DNA of 44,314 nucleotides from Aquificaceae bacterium (GTDB taxonomy: Bacteria > Aquificota > Aquificia > Aquificales > Aquificaceae), in assembly GCA_025062075.1 (NCBI GenBank), contig JANXBA010000005.1:1-44314 (forward strand), written 5' to 3'. How positions within the stretch are numbered: the stretch's first letter is position 1; every line of letters begins with the position of its first letter. This document shows, piece by piece, positions 25,009 through 31,379 of this stretch. The notes beneath the pieces were generated by a model, which was not told the DNA's origin, ran no database searches, and worked only from the letters and a program-made list of their open reading frames with translations. Position numbers and translations under genes: made by a program.

Positions 25009-26345
25009 AGAGGGGTCTGGTCATCTTGGGTGCTCAGTGGGGCGACGAGGGAAAGGGAAAGGTGGTGGACCTTCTGTCTGCAGACTTCTCCGCCACGGTG
25101 CGCTACCAAGGGGGTAGCAACGCAGGACACACGGTGCTGATAAAAGGCGAGAAGTTCGTGCTTCACCTCCTGCCTACGGGTATGCTCCACGAGCACACGC
25201 TGGGAGTGGTTGCCCAGGGCATGGTGGTGGATTTGGAACTGCTGGTGAAGGAGATAGAGGAGTTGGAAAGCAGGGGGCTTTCCGTCCGGGACAGGCTCTT
25301 CATAAGCGACAGGGTTCACTTAGTCATGCCCTACCATAAGGTGTTGGACTCCCTGTTTGAAAGCAAGGGGAAAATCGGCACCACCTTAAGGGGTATAGGC
25401 CCCTCCTACATGCTCAAGTACGGAAGAAGGGGCATAAGGGTTTGCGACTTGGAAAACCCGGACAGAGCCTACAGGCTCATGAAGGAGAACATGGAGTTCG
25501 TCCACGACCTGTGCGAGAAGGTCTACTGCGAAAACCACACCCTGAGCTTGGAGGAGATTTTTGAAAAAACCTTGGAGCACTACCGCAGGATAAGGGACAG
25601 GGTGACAGACACTACCCGCTGGCTTCTCCAGTACGAGGGTGAAGTGCTCTTTGAGGGAGCCCAGGGCACCATGTTAGACGTAGACATGGGCACTTACCCT
25701 TACGTGACCTCCTCCAACTCCTCCGCCTTGGGGCTCTCCAACGGCACGGGGCTTCCTCCGAGATACTTTTCCAACGCAAGCTTCTGGGGCGTGTCCAAGG
25801 CTTACGCCACGCGCGTAGGGGAAGGGCCATTCCCCACCGAGCTGACGGGCGAAGAGGGCCAGGAGCTAAGAGAGAGGGGAAAAGAGTACGGTGCCACCAC
25901 CGGCAGGCCCAGGAGGTGTGGCTGGCTTGACCTGGTGGCGCTCAAGCACGCGGTGGAGGTAAACGGGCTGGACGGTCTCGTGCTCACGAAGCTGGACGTG
26001 TTAGACCACTTTGAGGAGATAAAGGTCTGCGTGGCATACCAGCGTGGTCAAGACCTTATCTACCACTTCCCCGCCAGCTTAGACACCCTCCTTGAGGTAA
26101 AGCCCGTTTACAAAACCTTTAAGGGCTGGCGCAAGGACACGCGCGGTGCAAGAAGTCTCTCAGAGCTCCCACAGGGAGCCCTTGACTACCTTGAGTTTAT
26201 ACAGGAATACTTAGGCGTTCCCATAGTGATGCTCTCTACGGGCCCAGAGAGGGAAGAGTACCTCTGGCTCCGCCCTTACGACCTTGCGAGCCTGAAGACA
26301 AATACCCCAAGCCCAGCCAAGGACTGGAAAAAGACTATGGCGTAA
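25005..26345 (+). CDS. purA: Adenylosuccinate synthetase
   Basis: A 446-residue enzyme converting IMP to adenylosuccinate. The GTP/active-site loop is QWGDEGKGK (residues 11-19), with the catalytic Asp in it. NAGHT (38-42) and TTGRPRRCGWLD are present. The start at 25005 forms ATGA with the hflX stop; an upstream in-frame ATG inside hflX is rejected. Most homologues end soon after STGPERE; here about 25 more residues follow, encoded opposite the end of the permease gene (70-nt convergent overlap). Confidence 0.95.
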   Translation: MKRGLVILGAQWGDEGKGKVVDLLSADFSATVRYQGGSNAGHTVLIKGEKFVLHLLPTGMLHEHTLGVVAQGMVVDLELLVKEIEELESRGLSVRDRLFISDRVHLVMPYHKVLDSLFESKGKIGTTLRGIGPSYMLKYGRRGIRVCDLENPDRAYRLMKENMEFVHDLCEKVYCENHTLSLEEIFEKTLEHYRRIRDRVTDTTRWLLQYEGEVLFEGAQGTMLDVDMGTYPYVTSSNSSALGLSNGTGLPPRYFSNASFWGVSKAYATRVGEGPFPTELTGEEGQELRERGKEYGATTGRPRRCGWLDLVALKHAVEVNGLDGLVLTKLDVLDHFEEIKVCVAYQRGQDLIYHFPASLDTLLEVKPVYKTFKGWRKDTRGARSLSELPQGALDYLEFIQEYLGVPIVMLSTGPEREEYLWLRPYDLASLKTNTPSPAKDWKKTMA

Positions 26346-27010
26346 CCCGTGGGAAAGTCCAGCCAGAAGGAGAAGACCACCGCCAGAAAGCTCCAGCATA
26401 CCCCCCACGCCCAGGCAAAGGCAAGGCCCCGGTTCAACAGCAAAGACACCAGCGCAGGACCCACCAGCAGGACAAAAACCACCAGCACGCCCGCCAGCTT
26501 CACCGAGCTGGCAAGGGTCAGAGAAAAGAGCGCAAAGAAGGAGAGCTCCGAAACAGGCTTTTTCAAGCCTTTACGCAGGTAGAGCAGAGCCCCCACAAAG
26601 GCGTAGAGCACGGCGGTCTTTAGCACCTCCTCAAGCTTGACGAAGAGCACGTCGCTGGCTGTGAGCTTTTTGAGCTCCTCCATGCCGTGGGGAGAGAAAG
26701 AAAGAAGGAGCACCGCCAGAGAAAAGCCAAAGGCATACATAAGCCCGACGAAGGCCTCCGAGTAGTCTCTTATCTTTTGGGAAAGAGCTATGAGAAGGCT
26801 TGCCAGAAGTCCAAACAGAAGGGAGAAGAGGTAAAGGTGCTCACCGTGGAAAAAGAGCAGGGAAAAGGCCATGCCGACCCCGGAGAACTGTGCCACCGCC
26901 AGGTCCGCAAAGACTATGCCCCTTTTTATTATCTCCCTACCCAAGTAGGCGTGAATGCCTGTAAGCACCACCGAGAGCAAAAAGCTTGAAAGGAAAAGGT
27001 CCCAAATCAC
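26276..27010 (-). CDS. ABC-3 family metal permease (ZnuB/MntB-like)
   Basis: A 244-residue integral membrane protein with about seven hydrophobic segments. Family features include AYLGREIIKRGIVFADLAVAQFSGVGMA (about 22-49), the typical cytoplasmic-loop and helix start of ABC-3 permeases, and SVKLAGVLVVFVLLVGPAL near 167-185. It would import zinc or manganese with the ZnuA-like protein encoded just upstream (4-nt overlap). No ATPase gene is present in the window. The 3' end overlaps purA by 70 nt. Confidence 0.88.
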   Translation of the reverse strand: MIWDLFLSSFLLSVVLTGIHAYLGREIIKRGIVFADLAVAQFSGVGMAFSLLFFHGEHLYLFSLLFGLLASLLIALSQKIRDYSEAFVGLMYAFGFSLAVLLLSFSPHGMEELKKLTASDVLFVKLEEVLKTAVLYAFVGALLYLRKGLKKPVSELSFFALFSLTLASSVKLAGVLVVFVLLVGPALVSLLLNRGLAFAWAWGVCWSFLAVVFSFWLDFPTGYAIVFFQSLAGLGVFVFRLARS

Positions 27011-27891
27011 TGGGAGAGCCTCTTCAGCATAAGGTCGTAGAGCTCAAAGAGGTTCTTTACGCCCTCAGAGCCCACATCGCTTGGTAGCGCCACCACCTTT
27101 GCTCCTACTCTTTCCGCCACGGTCTGGGCGGGTCTGGTCTGCCCGGCTCTGAAGCTCTCTAAAATCACGAACCTCACGCCCTTGCCCGAGGCCTCCTTGA
27201 CCAGAGTGTCTAAGTGCCTTGCGGTGGGCGGAATGCCAGGTAGGGGCTCCAGCGTGCCGAGGACCTCAACGCCGTATCGCAGAAAAAGGTAGTTGTAGGT
27301 CTTGTGCCACTGTATGACCTTAAGACCCTTCAGGCGGAGAAAGCCCTCGTCCCACTCCTTGAGCTTTGTCTCCCACCTTTTCAGAAAGTCCTCAAGGTTT
27401 GACCTGTAGAAGGGGCAATCGGAGGGTCTTAGCTGACACATCCTATCTCCCAGAGCTCTTGCGAGGACAGGAATGTTGTGGGGGTCGTAAACGAAGTGAG
27501 GGTTGCCCTCAGGGTGCACGTCACCCATCTCGCGGGAGACCCTCTCGGGCTTTTCAATTATGCTAACAAACTGAGAAAGGTCAAGAAAGCCGGGTTTGCC
27601 TGGCTGTATCTTGGGGTTGTTGGACTGCTGAATCAGCGGAGGCAAAAAGCCTATCTCAATGCTTGCACCGTTTATCACCAGCAGGTCTGCGCCTCTTAGC
27701 TTTGCTACATGCGTAGGCCTTGGCACGACGAAGTGAAAGTCCTCGGTGGGCTTTGCTATGACATGAACGGCTACCTTGTCCCTGCCGATTTCTCTGACCA
27801 TCTCACCTATCCAAGGGTACGTGGCAACGACCTTGAGCTGGGCAAGAGAAAAGCCAAGAGAGAGCAGTAAAATGGCAAAAGCTCTAAGCAT
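27007..27891 (-). CDS. Metal ABC transporter substrate-binding protein (ZnuA-like)
   Basis: A 294-residue cluster A-I binding protein with a signal peptide (1-17). Likely metal ligands by family position are H53 (DFHFVVPRPTHV), H132 (GNPHFVYDP), H196 (WHKTYNYLFLRYG) and D272 (PSDVG). The long His/Asp-rich loop of typical ZnuA is short here, reduced to MGDVHPEGNPH. Three-His-plus-Asp sets occur in zinc- and manganese-binding members; zinc is favoured by the His-rich neighbours. It overlaps the permease by 4 nt and the small Cys-rich gene by 8 nt. Confidence 0.88.
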   Translation of the reverse strand: MLRAFAILLLSLGFSLAQLKVVATYPWIGEMVREIGRDKVAVHVIAKPTEDFHFVVPRPTHVAKLRGADLLVINGASIEIGFLPPLIQQSNNPKIQPGKPGFLDLSQFVSIIEKPERVSREMGDVHPEGNPHFVYDPHNIPVLARALGDRMCQLRPSDCPFYRSNLEDFLKRWETKLKEWDEGFLRLKGLKVIQWHKTYNYLFLRYGVEVLGTLEPLPGIPPTARHLDTLVKEASGKGVRFVILESFRAGQTRPAQTVAERVGAKVVALPSDVGSEGVKNLFELYDLMLKRLSQ

Positions 27892-28084
27892 GCTCTTTAC
27901 CTCCTTCGGGTTTTTCTTCTTTGCCTTTGAGTAGTTTCTTCGTCCCTATGTACAGGGCAAGGCCTACCGCGCTGGCGGAGGTACCTAAGCACGCAGGACA
28001 ACTCCCACAACCGCAGGTGGAGAAAACCCCAAAAGTCCCTACATAGGGAAGAAGCGGTAGCACCTTTATCAGCTTCTTTTCCAT
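27884..28084 (-). CDS. Small Cys-rich membrane protein
   Basis: A 66-residue protein with four cysteines, C24, C26, C29 and C32, in CGCGSCPACLG. They lie between weakly hydrophobic segments (about 9-22 and 36-50), and the tail is Lys/Glu-rich. I do not recognise a family. The Cys cluster could bind a metal at the membrane. It overlaps the ZnuA-like gene by 8 nt. A UUCG hairpin separates it from the outer-membrane gene upstream in the operon. Confidence 0.65.
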   Translation of the reverse strand: MEKKLIKVLPLLPYVGTFGVFSTCGCGSCPACLGTSASAVGLALYIGTKKLLKGKEEKPEGGKEHA

Positions 28085-28154: not shown

Positions 28155-29483
28155 TTAGAAGGGGTGCGCACCATGAGCTCCTATGGCGAAGTTAAACTGG
28201 AGTATGACCTCCTTGACCGGCTTTCGCTCAAACCTTCCACCGCCGAGGGGCTCGTGAAAGGCTCTGTTCTCCCCTACCTGTAGCCTTATGCGCGAGAACT
28301 CCGTGGGAGAGTACTCCAACATGGCGTAGTAGGCGGGCAAATTGTCAGGCGTAGACACGCTCCTCCCATCTACTTTCACGTCGTTTTTGTTTATCAGGTT
28401 GTACTGGAGGCCCGCTCTCCACTGCTTGTGAAGTCTTCCCACCAGCTGTGCGTAGAAGCCAGACTGTCTTCTCTCCACAGCTCTGGTAGTCACCCGGCCT
28501 TGTTGGTCAAATCCGTATCTGGTTCCCTCTTGGTCTCTGAACATGTACTCTCCCTGAAAGGCTATGTATCTTACGCTGTCTATCTGATAGCGTGCGGTAA
28601 GGTCAAGGCCGTAGAGCCTGCTTTTTGCGTCCAGTCCATGGTCGCTGTGAGCGTGCCTGTGCCTGCCCTGGGCGTAGGAGAGCCCCGTAAGCAGGGAGAA
28701 GTTGCCAAGGTCAAAGGAGGTCTTCACAAAGCCCGTGTAGAGGCTTGGGGCGTTTCTGTCTTCTAAAGAGAAGGTGGTGCCCGTGGTGGACCTTATGGTA
28801 AAGCCCTTGTATCCGAAGCTCTGGTCGTTCTCACCTTGCAGGACTTCCAGACCGAAGAGTAGGTAAAAGGGTGCTGGTGCCAGAAGGTTCAGTTGAAGAC
28901 CCTTCTCTACAAGCCCGTCGTCTCCCAAGAACACCTTGTTAGGAAGGGGCTGAGTGGCAAAGTCCCAGGCGTGTGGATGCTGGGCGTTCAGCCTTCCAAA
29001 AGAGCTCCTAAACTTACCCAACTTCAGTTGAAGTCCGCCGGGCAGACCTCTGGTCACTGCGTAGGCCTCCTCTATCTGCCCACCGTGCTCGGAGAAGGGT
29101 ATGGTGGCGTGAAGGTCAAAGTAGGGGTCAACTGGTGCATACAAAAAGAGCTCGCCGTAGTTCAGGTTAAAGCCTCTCTTTTCGTTGAGCATGCCGTGAC
29201 CGTGTCCATCATGGTGTCTGTGCCAGAGTCTGGGTATAACCAAGTGTTCAAACTCCTCGTCTTTCTTGTTCCTACCTACCAGAGAAAAGTCCAGTATGAA
29301 GGAGATGTCTGGAAGCAGTGCGGTCTGCCCAAAGGGTCGATAGGCTCTCATCCTGTCGTCAAACTTCCTGCTCAGTTCCAAGCTTCTGTCCACAGGAGCA
29401 GGTCCTCTTTGCGTCTTTTCCATGGCTGTGAGCTGAGCAAAAGAAAGAGTAAAAAGTCCGAAAGCGAGCAAGATTTTTCTCAT
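28155..29483 (-). CDS. His-rich outer-membrane beta-barrel protein, zinc-regulated receptor-like
   Basis: A 442-residue protein with a signal peptide (MRKILLAFGLFTLSFAQ) and a mature part of alternating beta-strands ending in an aromatic strand (VILQFNFAIGAHGAHPF). Two His-rich segments could bind zinc: RLWHRHHDGHGHG at about 85-97 and GRHRHAHSDHG near 275-285. It resembles proteins annotated as zinc-regulated outer-membrane receptors with a porin-like fold. No TonB plug domain is obvious. The ATG at 29483 has AGGAGGTG at ideal spacing; a GTG three codons earlier is rejected. Confidence 0.82.
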   Translation of the reverse strand: MRKILLAFGLFTLSFAQLTAMEKTQRGPAPVDRSLELSRKFDDRMRAYRPFGQTALLPDISFILDFSLVGRNKKDEEFEHLVIPRLWHRHHDGHGHGMLNEKRGFNLNYGELFLYAPVDPYFDLHATIPFSEHGGQIEEAYAVTRGLPGGLQLKLGKFRSSFGRLNAQHPHAWDFATQPLPNKVFLGDDGLVEKGLQLNLLAPAPFYLLFGLEVLQGENDQSFGYKGFTIRSTTGTTFSLEDRNAPSLYTGFVKTSFDLGNFSLLTGLSYAQGRHRHAHSDHGLDAKSRLYGLDLTARYQIDSVRYIAFQGEYMFRDQEGTRYGFDQQGRVTTRAVERRQSGFYAQLVGRLHKQWRAGLQYNLINKNDVKVDGRSVSTPDNLPAYYAMLEYSPTEFSRIRLQVGENRAFHEPLGGGRFERKPVKEVILQFNFAIGAHGAHPF

Positions 29484-29496
29484 GGTTTTCACCTCC

Positions 29497-29835
29497 TTAC
29501 AAGGTTATGACTTGCTCCACGCCGAGCTGTTTGGCCTTCCCGTAAAGGTTAGGAAAGCAGCCTATGGTGGCTCCCTCTACAAGCATGTCCGCTATGTTCC
29601 TCTCGTAACAACACTGGTCACAGCCCATGAGAAAGCCTATCTTGCCCTGTTTGAGAAGCCTTGCCAGCCTCTCACCTATGGGATTGCCCTTAACCAAAAC
29701 GTAGTTGTTGTCCAAGAAAAAGAACATGCCCGCCACTTCCACCGGGTGGGCGTCGTTCTCTATCTGAGGAAGTATCATCTTCCCCAGTATGTAACTCGCC
29801 GAGTTAGGCGTGCTGAATATGTAAAGAACTTTCAT
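29497..29835 (-). CDS. DsrE-like protein with CxxCC motif
   Basis: A 112-residue soluble protein of the DsrE/DsrF-like fold group. It has an N-terminal beta-alpha segment (KVLYIFSTPNSASYILGKM), GMFFFLDNNYVL at about 36-47, and a Cys motif GCDQCCYERN with C72, C75 and C76. It ends VEQVITL. Family members handle sulfur or selenium transfer; the annotated SaoD proteins look similar, but that is from memory only. Its place in a metal-uptake operon suggests cytoplasmic metal or thiol handling. An AAAGGAGGTG ribosome binding site precedes the ATG. Confidence 0.72.
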   Translation of the reverse strand: MKVLYIFSTPNSASYILGKMILPQIENDAHPVEVAGMFFFLDNNYVLVKGNPIGERLARLLKQGKIGFLMGCDQCCYERNIADMLVEGATIGCFPNLYGKAKQLGVEQVITL

Positions 29836-29878: not shown

Positions 29879-30145
29879 TCAGAGCGCAGGAGGTGCTCTT
29901 ATGGGGGTGTTGAGCGTGTAAGACTTTTCTTGGGGCTCGTGTTTTTCTAACCTCTGTGTAAGGTCGTAGAAAATAAGCCTCAATCTTACTGTCAGCTTCT
30001 CCCCGCTACCCTCTGCAGGACTTTGTTCAAGCAGACACAGTGAGCAGTCTACGTGAAGCTCGTGGTCCTCGTGGTGGTGAGTGGCTACGGCAAAGTCTGC
30101 AAAAAGGAGGAGCAGTGATGTGAGCAGAGAGAGAAGACCTCTCAT
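29879..30145 (-). CDS. Small secreted His/Cys-rich protein (DUF2946-like)
   Basis: An 88-residue protein: a signal peptide (1-21) followed at once by HHHEDHELHVDCSLCLL (H23-25, H28, H31, C34, C37), a likely metal site. The C-terminus ends IRAPP followed by two residues. The HH...CxxC pattern plus the RAPP ending resembles DUF2946 proteins found beside metal transport genes. It is first in the operon, with its start 9 nt after the -10. Confidence 0.68.
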   Translation of the reverse strand: MRGLLSLLTSLLLLFADFAVATHHHEDHELHVDCSLCLLEQSPAEGSGEKLTVRLRLIFYDLTQRLEKHEPQEKSYTLNTPIRAPPAL

Positions 30146-30146
30146 T

Positions 30147-30167
30147 TGAATGTGATTTTAACATTCA
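30147..30167. promoter_or_regulatory. 21-bp inverted repeat, candidate metalloregulator operator
   Basis: TGAATGT (30147-30153) and ACATTCA (30161-30167) form a perfect 7-7-7 inverted repeat whose spacer contains the -10 of the metal operon. A repressor bound here would block transcription. The half-sites share ATGT...ACAT with Zur boxes of Proteobacteria, although the spacing is 2 nt shorter. A Fur/Zur or ArsR-type repressor is plausible; none is encoded in the window. Confidence 0.55.
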
Positions 30168-30183
30168 TAATGTCAAGTGTCAA
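30155..30183 (-). promoter_or_regulatory. Promoter of the six-gene metal-acquisition operon
   Basis: On the minus strand a perfect TTGACA (30178-30183) and TAAAAT (30155-30160) are separated by the ideal 17 nt. A second TTGACA lies 7 nt further in. The ATG at 30145 is 9 nt downstream of the -10, so the leader is only about 2-3 nt. Confidence 0.7.
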
Positions 30184-30222
30184 CGGGAAGGGAGCGACGG
30201 CGACAATCAGGGGTATGGAAAC

Positions 30223-30228
30223 TATAAT
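30223..30228 (+). promoter_or_regulatory. -10 element (TATAAT) for the MFS transporter
   Basis: TATAAT ends 11 nt before the ATG at 30240, with an AGAGG ribosome binding site between. The leader is therefore only about 5 nt. CGACAA, 16 nt upstream, is a weak -35. Confidence 0.45.
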
Positions 30229-30239
30229 AAGAGGACAAA

Positions 30240-31379
30240 ATGTCTAAGAGATTGAGACTGCTCTCCTTTGCTCTCTACGACTCTGCGGAGACGGTGCTCG
30301 GAGCTCTTGTATTCTCTACTCTTTACCCTTTGTACATAACAGAGCACTTGGATACCAAGGTTTACTCCGCTCTCTACGGTTTTTCTTTTTTCCTGTCCTT
30401 TCTCCTCGCACTGCAACTGGGTAGGGTAGCGGACAGCAGGGGTTTAAGAAAGCGCTTTTTTATCTTTTTTAGCCTTGGTGTGCCTCTGATGGGCCTTGTC
30501 CTGCACTTGACCTTTGAGGTGCCTACGGTTAACTTCTTGTTCTACCTACTTCTTGCCCTCGTCCACCAGCAGGCCCTGGTTTTTTACAACTCTCTGCTCA
30601 AGTCCTTCGACGCAAGGGGAGTGGCCTCCGGTCTGGGCGTGGCGGTGGGCTACGTGGGCTCTGCGGTTGCCCTTCTCTTCCTTGCCCCCCGTGTGGAGCT
30701 CCCGCAGGCTTTCATTTGGGTTTCCCTGATATTTTTTCTGCTGTCTTTGCCCTCGCTTTTGACTCTGAAAGAACCGCAGGAAAGACAGCAGGTCAGGCTA
30801 AAAGAGCTCCTCAAGGACAGGAGGTTTCTCTTTTTGATGGGGTCTATTTTAATGCTGATGGAGCTTGCCCACACGCTCATAGCTATGATGGGCGTCTATC
30901 TGAGAGAGGTCTACGCTTTGGACAAGCAGGAAATATACAGAGTGATAGGGCTCTCCGCTCTGGGGGGCGTGCTGGGAGGTGCGTTCTTCGGTCTTCTCAC
31001 CGATAGGATGTCTGCGGAGCGTCTTTTTCCCTTTGGGTTTTTCCTGTGGGCAGGTTTTGTGGTGCTTCTGTACTTTACTCCTGAGAGCATGCTCCTACCG
31101 CTGGGGCTGCTGGCGGGCTTGTGCTTGTCGCACCTGTGGACTACCTCCCGCGTCCTTCTTTTGGAGAAGTTCACTGAGGGAGATGTATCAGTGAGGTTTT
31201 CTTTCTACTCTCTGAGCGAGCGCGTAGCCTCTACGGTAGGACTGATGGTCTGGTCCTTCTTTCTCTTAGTTACTGGGGGTCAATACAGACTTTCTGCGCT
31301 CCTTATGCTGGTCTTCCCTCTGTTAGGGCTTGTCCTCTACCTGCTCTCAGACAGGAGGTTTAAAGTAAAGGGGTTCTAA
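30240..31379 (+). CDS. MFS transporter, Atg22/UMF1-like
   Basis: A 379-residue integral membrane protein with about 11-12 hydrophobic helices. The N-terminal LSFALYDSAETVLGALVFSTLYPLY and the GVASGLGVAVGYVGSAVALLFL segment (about 126-147) fit the Atg22-like (UMF1) branch of the major facilitator superfamily. The substrate is unknown. It is divergent from the metal operon, but its own -10 lies about 55 nt from the operator, so shared control is uncertain. The 3' end overlaps tsaB by 33 nt. Confidence 0.8.
   Translation: MSKRLRLLSFALYDSAETVLGALVFSTLYPLYITEHLDTKVYSALYGFSFFLSFLLALQLGRVADSRGLRKRFFIFFSLGVPLMGLVLHLTFEVPTVNFLFYLLLALVHQQALVFYNSLLKSFDARGVASGLGVAVGYVGSAVALLFLAPRVELPQAFIWVSLIFFLLSLPSLLTLKEPQERQQVRLKELLKDRRFLFLMGSILMLMELAHTLIAMMGVYLREVYALDKQEIYRVIGLSALGGVLGGAFFGLLTDRMSAERLFPFGFFLWAGFVVLLYFTPESMLLPLGLLAGLCLSHLWTTSRVLLLEKFTEGDVSVRFSFYSLSERVASTVGLMVWSFFLLVTGGQYRLSALLMLVFPLLGLVLYLLSDRRFKVKGF

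Follow-up and report, generated by a model that had tools for sequence, protein, structure and literature searches.

Repeat and promoter of the metal-uptake operon

Does the inverted repeat at the promoter of a zinc-type uptake operon in a hot-spring Aquificaceae bacterium mark the operator of a repressor and, if so, which regulator would bind there? The window, the whole 44,314-nucleotide stretch of DNA that was analysed, harbours this repeat (dyad A) at positions 30147–30167: on the forward strand TGAATGT (30147–30153) and ACATTCA (30161–30167) flank the spacer GATTTTA (30154–30160), and the minus strand, on which the operon is encoded, carries TGAATGT-TAAAATC-ACATTCA. The original prediction of a perfect 7-7-7 inverted repeat is exact, as borne out by direct reading, and the repeat does cover the -10 of the metal operon, since the minus-strand TAAAAT at 30155–30160 sits within its spacer.

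The minus strand reads TTGACA-CTTGACATTATGAATGT-TAAAAT-CACATTCAA-ATG. In a promoter scan this arrangement, TTGACA-17-TAAAAT, attains a sigma-70 score of 11/12, with a -35 hexamer TTGACA at 30178–30183 and a -10 that is preceded by TG and recognized as extended by the scan and by comparison with relatives. The -10 is separated by 9 nt from the ATG of the first gene, p88, which encodes an 88-aa protein, and the end of the repeat lies 1 nt from the same ATG. Transcription is predicted to start ∼7 nt past the -10, at the edge of the repeat, which would leave a leader of 2–3 nt. The bulk of the repeat would lie upstream of this predicted start and hence be untranscribed, so that a DNA site is likelier than an RNA hairpin. 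An RNA element was rejected on the same ground, and also because the Rfam matches in the window amount to one tRNA only. Start codons are located no more than ∼10 nt from the -10 at the fur gene (L059 7774), the perR gene (L060 10510) and the znu operon (window 30145), and near-leaderless transcripts may therefore be common in the genus. A TTAAAAT-type -10 is also found in other genera and at the promoter of znuA2, a second ZnuA-like gene.

The symmetry itself carries little weight. Perfect 7-7-7 repeats occur five times in the window, where Markov shuffles predict 3.4; for a given -10, the chance that some perfect repeat with 7-bp arms spans it is ∼0.01, and the shuffle p for this repeat in the 63 bp of its own promoter is ∼0.017. 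As the window contains some tens of promoters, the repeat alone is unremarkable and constitutes weak evidence. It occurs once in the whole genome. The next-best match, with two mismatches, is at 29814–29834 and was rejected as a second operator, because the dsrE coding sequence begins there. Exact 7/7 symmetry appears confined to this one genome (G000), and the genomes compared suggest that it is either an accident of G000 or a recent refinement.

Operon genes and transporter loci

The promoter precedes a six-gene minus-strand operon, p88-dsrE-omp-p66-znuA-znuB, whose gene order is conserved across the order Aquificales; the carriers include Aquifex, represented by G016, which we take to be A. 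aeolicus. The first gene, p88 (29879–30145), encodes a small, secreted-looking protein rich in His and Cys. The p88 family, which leads the operon across Aquificales, is characterized by the motif HHHEDHxLHxDCxxC and a RAPP-type tail, and no match to it was found in Pfam or NCBIfam. Identity of p88 to its orthologues in the genomes that share the promoter block is only ∼45–48%. It is followed by a SaoD/DsrE-family protein of 112 aa (29497–29835; NCBIfam NF040913, 144.7 bits against a cut-off of 152). Among the genus members that have it, this protein shows 83–95% identity, compared with ∼40–79% for its operon neighbours; the gene is missing from some genomes. The third product is a 445-aa protein with His-rich stretches (28155–29492), outer-membrane-like to judge from its sequence, for which a family search found no family. 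A small membrane-like protein of 66 aa (27884–28084) comes next: its CGCGSCPAC motif, read as TCGCGSCPAC with the preceding residue, is reminiscent of part of mercury transporters, and no family was found for it.

The last two genes encode a ZnuA-like metal-binding protein (27007–27891; PF01297) and a ZnuB-like ABC-3 permease (26276–27010; PF00950). The candidate metal ligands of ZnuA, H53, H132, H196 and D272, are invariant in an alignment of 14 homologues; four such ligands point to zinc. The ATPase is not part of the operon in the window and is encoded at G000:C7 behind znuA2. That locus (L060 5972–7766) comprises a DUF2325 gene, the second ZnuA-like gene and a gene for a ZnuC/AztA-like ATPase, with no adjoining permease gene. 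The transporter thus seems split between two loci, with ZnuA and ZnuB in the window and the ATPase at C7.

On the other side of the promoter lies a divergent MFS transporter gene (30240–31379), which has its own promoter, GCGACA-17-TATAAT, at 30200–30228. This gene was not found beside the znu operon in the relatives that were fetched, which indicates that the block described below travels with the znu operon.

Conservation of the promoter block

The repeat forms part of a 37-bp block (30147–30183, minus strand) that spans the interval from the -35 to the end of the box and is regarded as a putative promoter/operator element of the zinc-type uptake operon. Six genomes were compared, namely that of the window (G000) and five relatives (G003, G004, G007, G010 and G013); the promoters of G005, G008, G009 and G011 were left out. 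Thirty of the 37 columns are invariant, and these include the -35 hexamer, 12 of the 17 spacer columns and 6 of the 9 columns after the -10. In the same six genomes the promoter of znuA2, which served as a control, retains only its -10 and none of its 17 spacer columns. Spacer columns are also kept at the promoters of feoAB (11/17), fur (14/17) and perR (12/17). The orthologous znu promoters have therefore been kept beyond the needs of a core promoter (12/17 against 0/17 in the control), and it is chiefly this comparison which suggests that the block binds something besides RNA polymerase. Because the spacer is kept in the relatives while znuA2 keeps only its -10, the block is probably functional and probably an operator: the predicted placement of a repressor operator gains support from a block that is preserved from the -35 to the start in five relatives. 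The probability that the conserved block is an operator for some regulator is put at roughly 65%.

Should the block instead be an unregulated strong promoter, its spacer and near-leaderless start would be kept for transcription strength, and the repeat would be a coincidence due to one T-to-A difference in this genome. In favour of this explanation, which is unlikely, the left arm includes the TG of the extended -10, TTAAAAT-type -10 hexamers are common at other promoters, perfect 7-7-7 repeats occur near the chance rate and the relatives pair only 5–6 of the 7 positions. It does not account for the lack of spacer conservation in the control, nor for the invariance, in all six genomes, of the TTCA that follows the -10 and precedes the start.

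An operator of this kind would be expected at orthologous operons, and here the outcome is mixed: the block is present in the five relatives, but the perfect symmetry is not kept there, and G002, G006 and G012, which belong to the same genus and have readable promoters, lack the block upstream of the operon. In a ZnuA tree the block is confined to one clade (support 91/88), which includes G012. In G012 the -10 is covered, in place of the block, by another perfect repeat, CTGATAT-N5-ATATCAG, whose shuffle p of 0.06 is weak. Among the block carriers, relatives combine ACTTTCA or ATTTTCA with TGAATGT, or TGAGTGT with ACTTTCA. A second, overlapping dyad is also present. Dyad B, TTGACATT-ATG-AATGTTAA (30158–30176, minus strand), has its centre 10 bp from that of dyad A; the window and three relatives preserve 7 of its 8 pairs when it is written as TTGACATT-N3-AATGTTAA. 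It is the top-scoring dyad in a scan of G003 and G007 and was recognized by reading in G013. Judged by pairing, dyad B appears to fit about as well as dyad A. Dyad A or dyad B may be the real operator, or the two may act together, with two dimers on one face; it may also be that neither of them serves as operator.

Scans with the palindrome, the clade 21-mer and relaxed dyad patterns returned one such site per genome, only at the znu operon. No other zinc genes of the genome share it. A genome-wide regulon was rejected, because the clade 21-mer and the relaxed dyad pattern recover, besides the znu site, scattered matches only. The other 21-mer matches with checked flanks show no conserved promoter context and mostly lack a plausible gene start, and the relaxed pattern gives only slightly more extra matches than its reversed control. 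The block is also absent from the znuA2 promoter, at the second zinc-type locus, where G000 also has znuC. A single occurrence in each genome would be expected of an operator with one target, but equally of a degenerate box that escapes simple patterns.

Candidate regulators

The library searched yielded no papers on zinc regulation, or on Zur, in Aquificales. A Pfam search of the window's genome, which is 99.7% complete, detected exactly two Fur-family genes. The protein encoded at G000:C4 is Fur-like, being closest to solved Fur proteins; its best model is the Helicobacter-type Fur, below the cut-off of that model, and it scores under every curated Zur/Fur cut-off. The promoter of its own gene carries TGMAAATGATATTCAKTTA, the genus Fur box. 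The second protein, encoded at G000:C7, is closest to PerR, and a TTGAAAATnATTAGCA-type box is found at the perR promoter across the genus; in G006 a near copy of this PerR-type box precedes the gene of an AhpC-type peroxiredoxin. Fur-type boxes of the 7-1-7 form occur in both the fur promoter (p 0.008) and the perR promoter (p 0.002). DtxR-family proteins (PF02742) are absent from all 14 genomes of the genus.

The fuller proposal, that the block is the operator of the Fur-like protein and mediates metal-dependent repression of the znu operon, is the favoured reading but a tentative one, at somewhat less than even odds. Under metal-replete conditions a dimer of the metal-loaded repressor would occupy the block, covering the -10 and possibly also the -35, and would thereby obstruct RNA polymerase; metal shortage would release the repressor. 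The weaker step is the identity of this repressor, which might be the universal Fur-like protein of G000:C4. It is suggested because the Fur-like and PerR-like proteins are the only metalloregulators among the Fur, DtxR and ArsR classes tested, and because the znu box resembles the box of the protein's own promoter, with dyad centres in register. The Fur 7-1-7 box is TGATAATNATTATCA. Like this box and the genus Fur box, the znu dyad lies within a conserved promoter block; unlike them, it is placed on the -10, not in the spacer, and the match is statistically weak. The clade znu box, reversed to TGAAAGTGATTTTAACATTCA, agrees with TGMAAATGATATTCAKTTA at 13 of 19 positions when the centres are aligned (12 of 19 for the window sequence), with P ∼0.006 if the -10 is held fixed but p ∼0.08 when the block is scanned freely. 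Genomes that lack this znu operon also carry the Fur-like gene. For this reason a role as dedicated partner of the operon was rejected, and the protein appears to be a general regulator.

None of the known Zur, Fur, PerR, NikR and SmtB motifs matched the block of the window significantly in a shuffle test, which covered the Bacillus Zur and CzrA motifs as well. The original prediction had seen Zur-like halves in the repeat and, in the repeat itself, the possible site of the lineage's Zur or another metalloregulator. The Zur reading would hold if the Fur-like protein were really a zinc-responsive Zur acting on an E. coli-type box with a centre 2 nt shorter, which is doubtful. The B. subtilis Zur box is of 7-1-7 or 9-1-9 type, TAAATCGTAAT-N-ATTACGATTTA. 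The block is like it in serving a zinc-uptake target and in having A and C at +4/+5 from the centre in both halves, yet it matches at only 11 of 22 positions (p 0.7). A zinc-type uptake operon is the target that a Zur would have, and the block overlaps the -10 of its promoter, as Zur boxes can (PMC6103462). The E. coli, or proteobacterial, consensus GAAATGTTATA-N-TATAACATTTC (PMC4219657) has the words AATGTTA and ACATT in common with the block, in which AATGT and ACATT form the dyad words, but the block has the shorter centre and no central TATA step, and the match is 12/22 (shuffle p 0.34). With the Paracoccus sites of PMC5387054 included, the E. coli, B. subtilis and P. denitrificans motifs fit no better than shuffles (p 0.3–0.97). 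Furthermore, there is a single site in the genome, the znuA2 locus is without the block, and neither Fur-family protein, of which one looks Fur-like and the other PerR-like, reached the cut-off of a curated Zur model. Operator placement is thus the part of the prediction that gains support, and the Zur assignment is unsupported by these comparisons.

ArsR had also been proposed as a candidate metalloregulator. The outer TGAA...TTCA words recall ArsR/SmtB operators of the TGAA-N6-TTCA type, but the spacing is N13 rather than N6, the match is 8/14 (p 0.55) and no ArsR-family protein (PF01022) was detected in G000. That the site serves a regulator from some family other than Fur, DtxR or ArsR (NikR-like, CsoR-like or TetR-like, for instance), possibly operon-specific, is improbable: such a regulator would accord with a block that fits no known motif, with one target per genome and with the lack of a regulator gene in the examined parts of the operon neighbourhood, but no candidate was found, neither the NikR nor the SmtB/CzrA motif matches the block, and a spacer of 17 nt speaks against activation of the MerR type.

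If the Fur-like protein is the repressor, a broader and rather unlikely scenario can be drawn: an Aquificaceae clade without a separate Zur in which this universal protein would regulate zinc import from an operator peculiar to the lineage, superimposed on the -10 of a near-leaderless promoter. In sister species, unrelated dyads such as the CTGATAT-N5-ATATCAG of G012 would have taken the place of that operator. Repressor sites at the promoters of metal-uptake genes are ordinary elements, and the block is a useful test case for zinc control in Aquificaceae. It provides a defined 37-bp probe with two candidate regulators and built-in controls in the fur, perR and znuA2 promoters, so that the existence of a separate Zur in this deep-branching hyperthermophile lineage is now directly testable.

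Two further promoters of the genus display conserved elements. A block resembling ATTTTGGGATTGTATATTAATTTC, slightly altered in some cases, is common to the feoAB promoters (L185–L194) of ten genomes and resembles no Fur, PerR or Zur box. In four genomes (L242, L250, L253 and L254) a Fur/PerR-like box, TGCAAATTATTATCATTTA, overlies the promoter of a gene that is 2-isopropylmalate-synthase-like.
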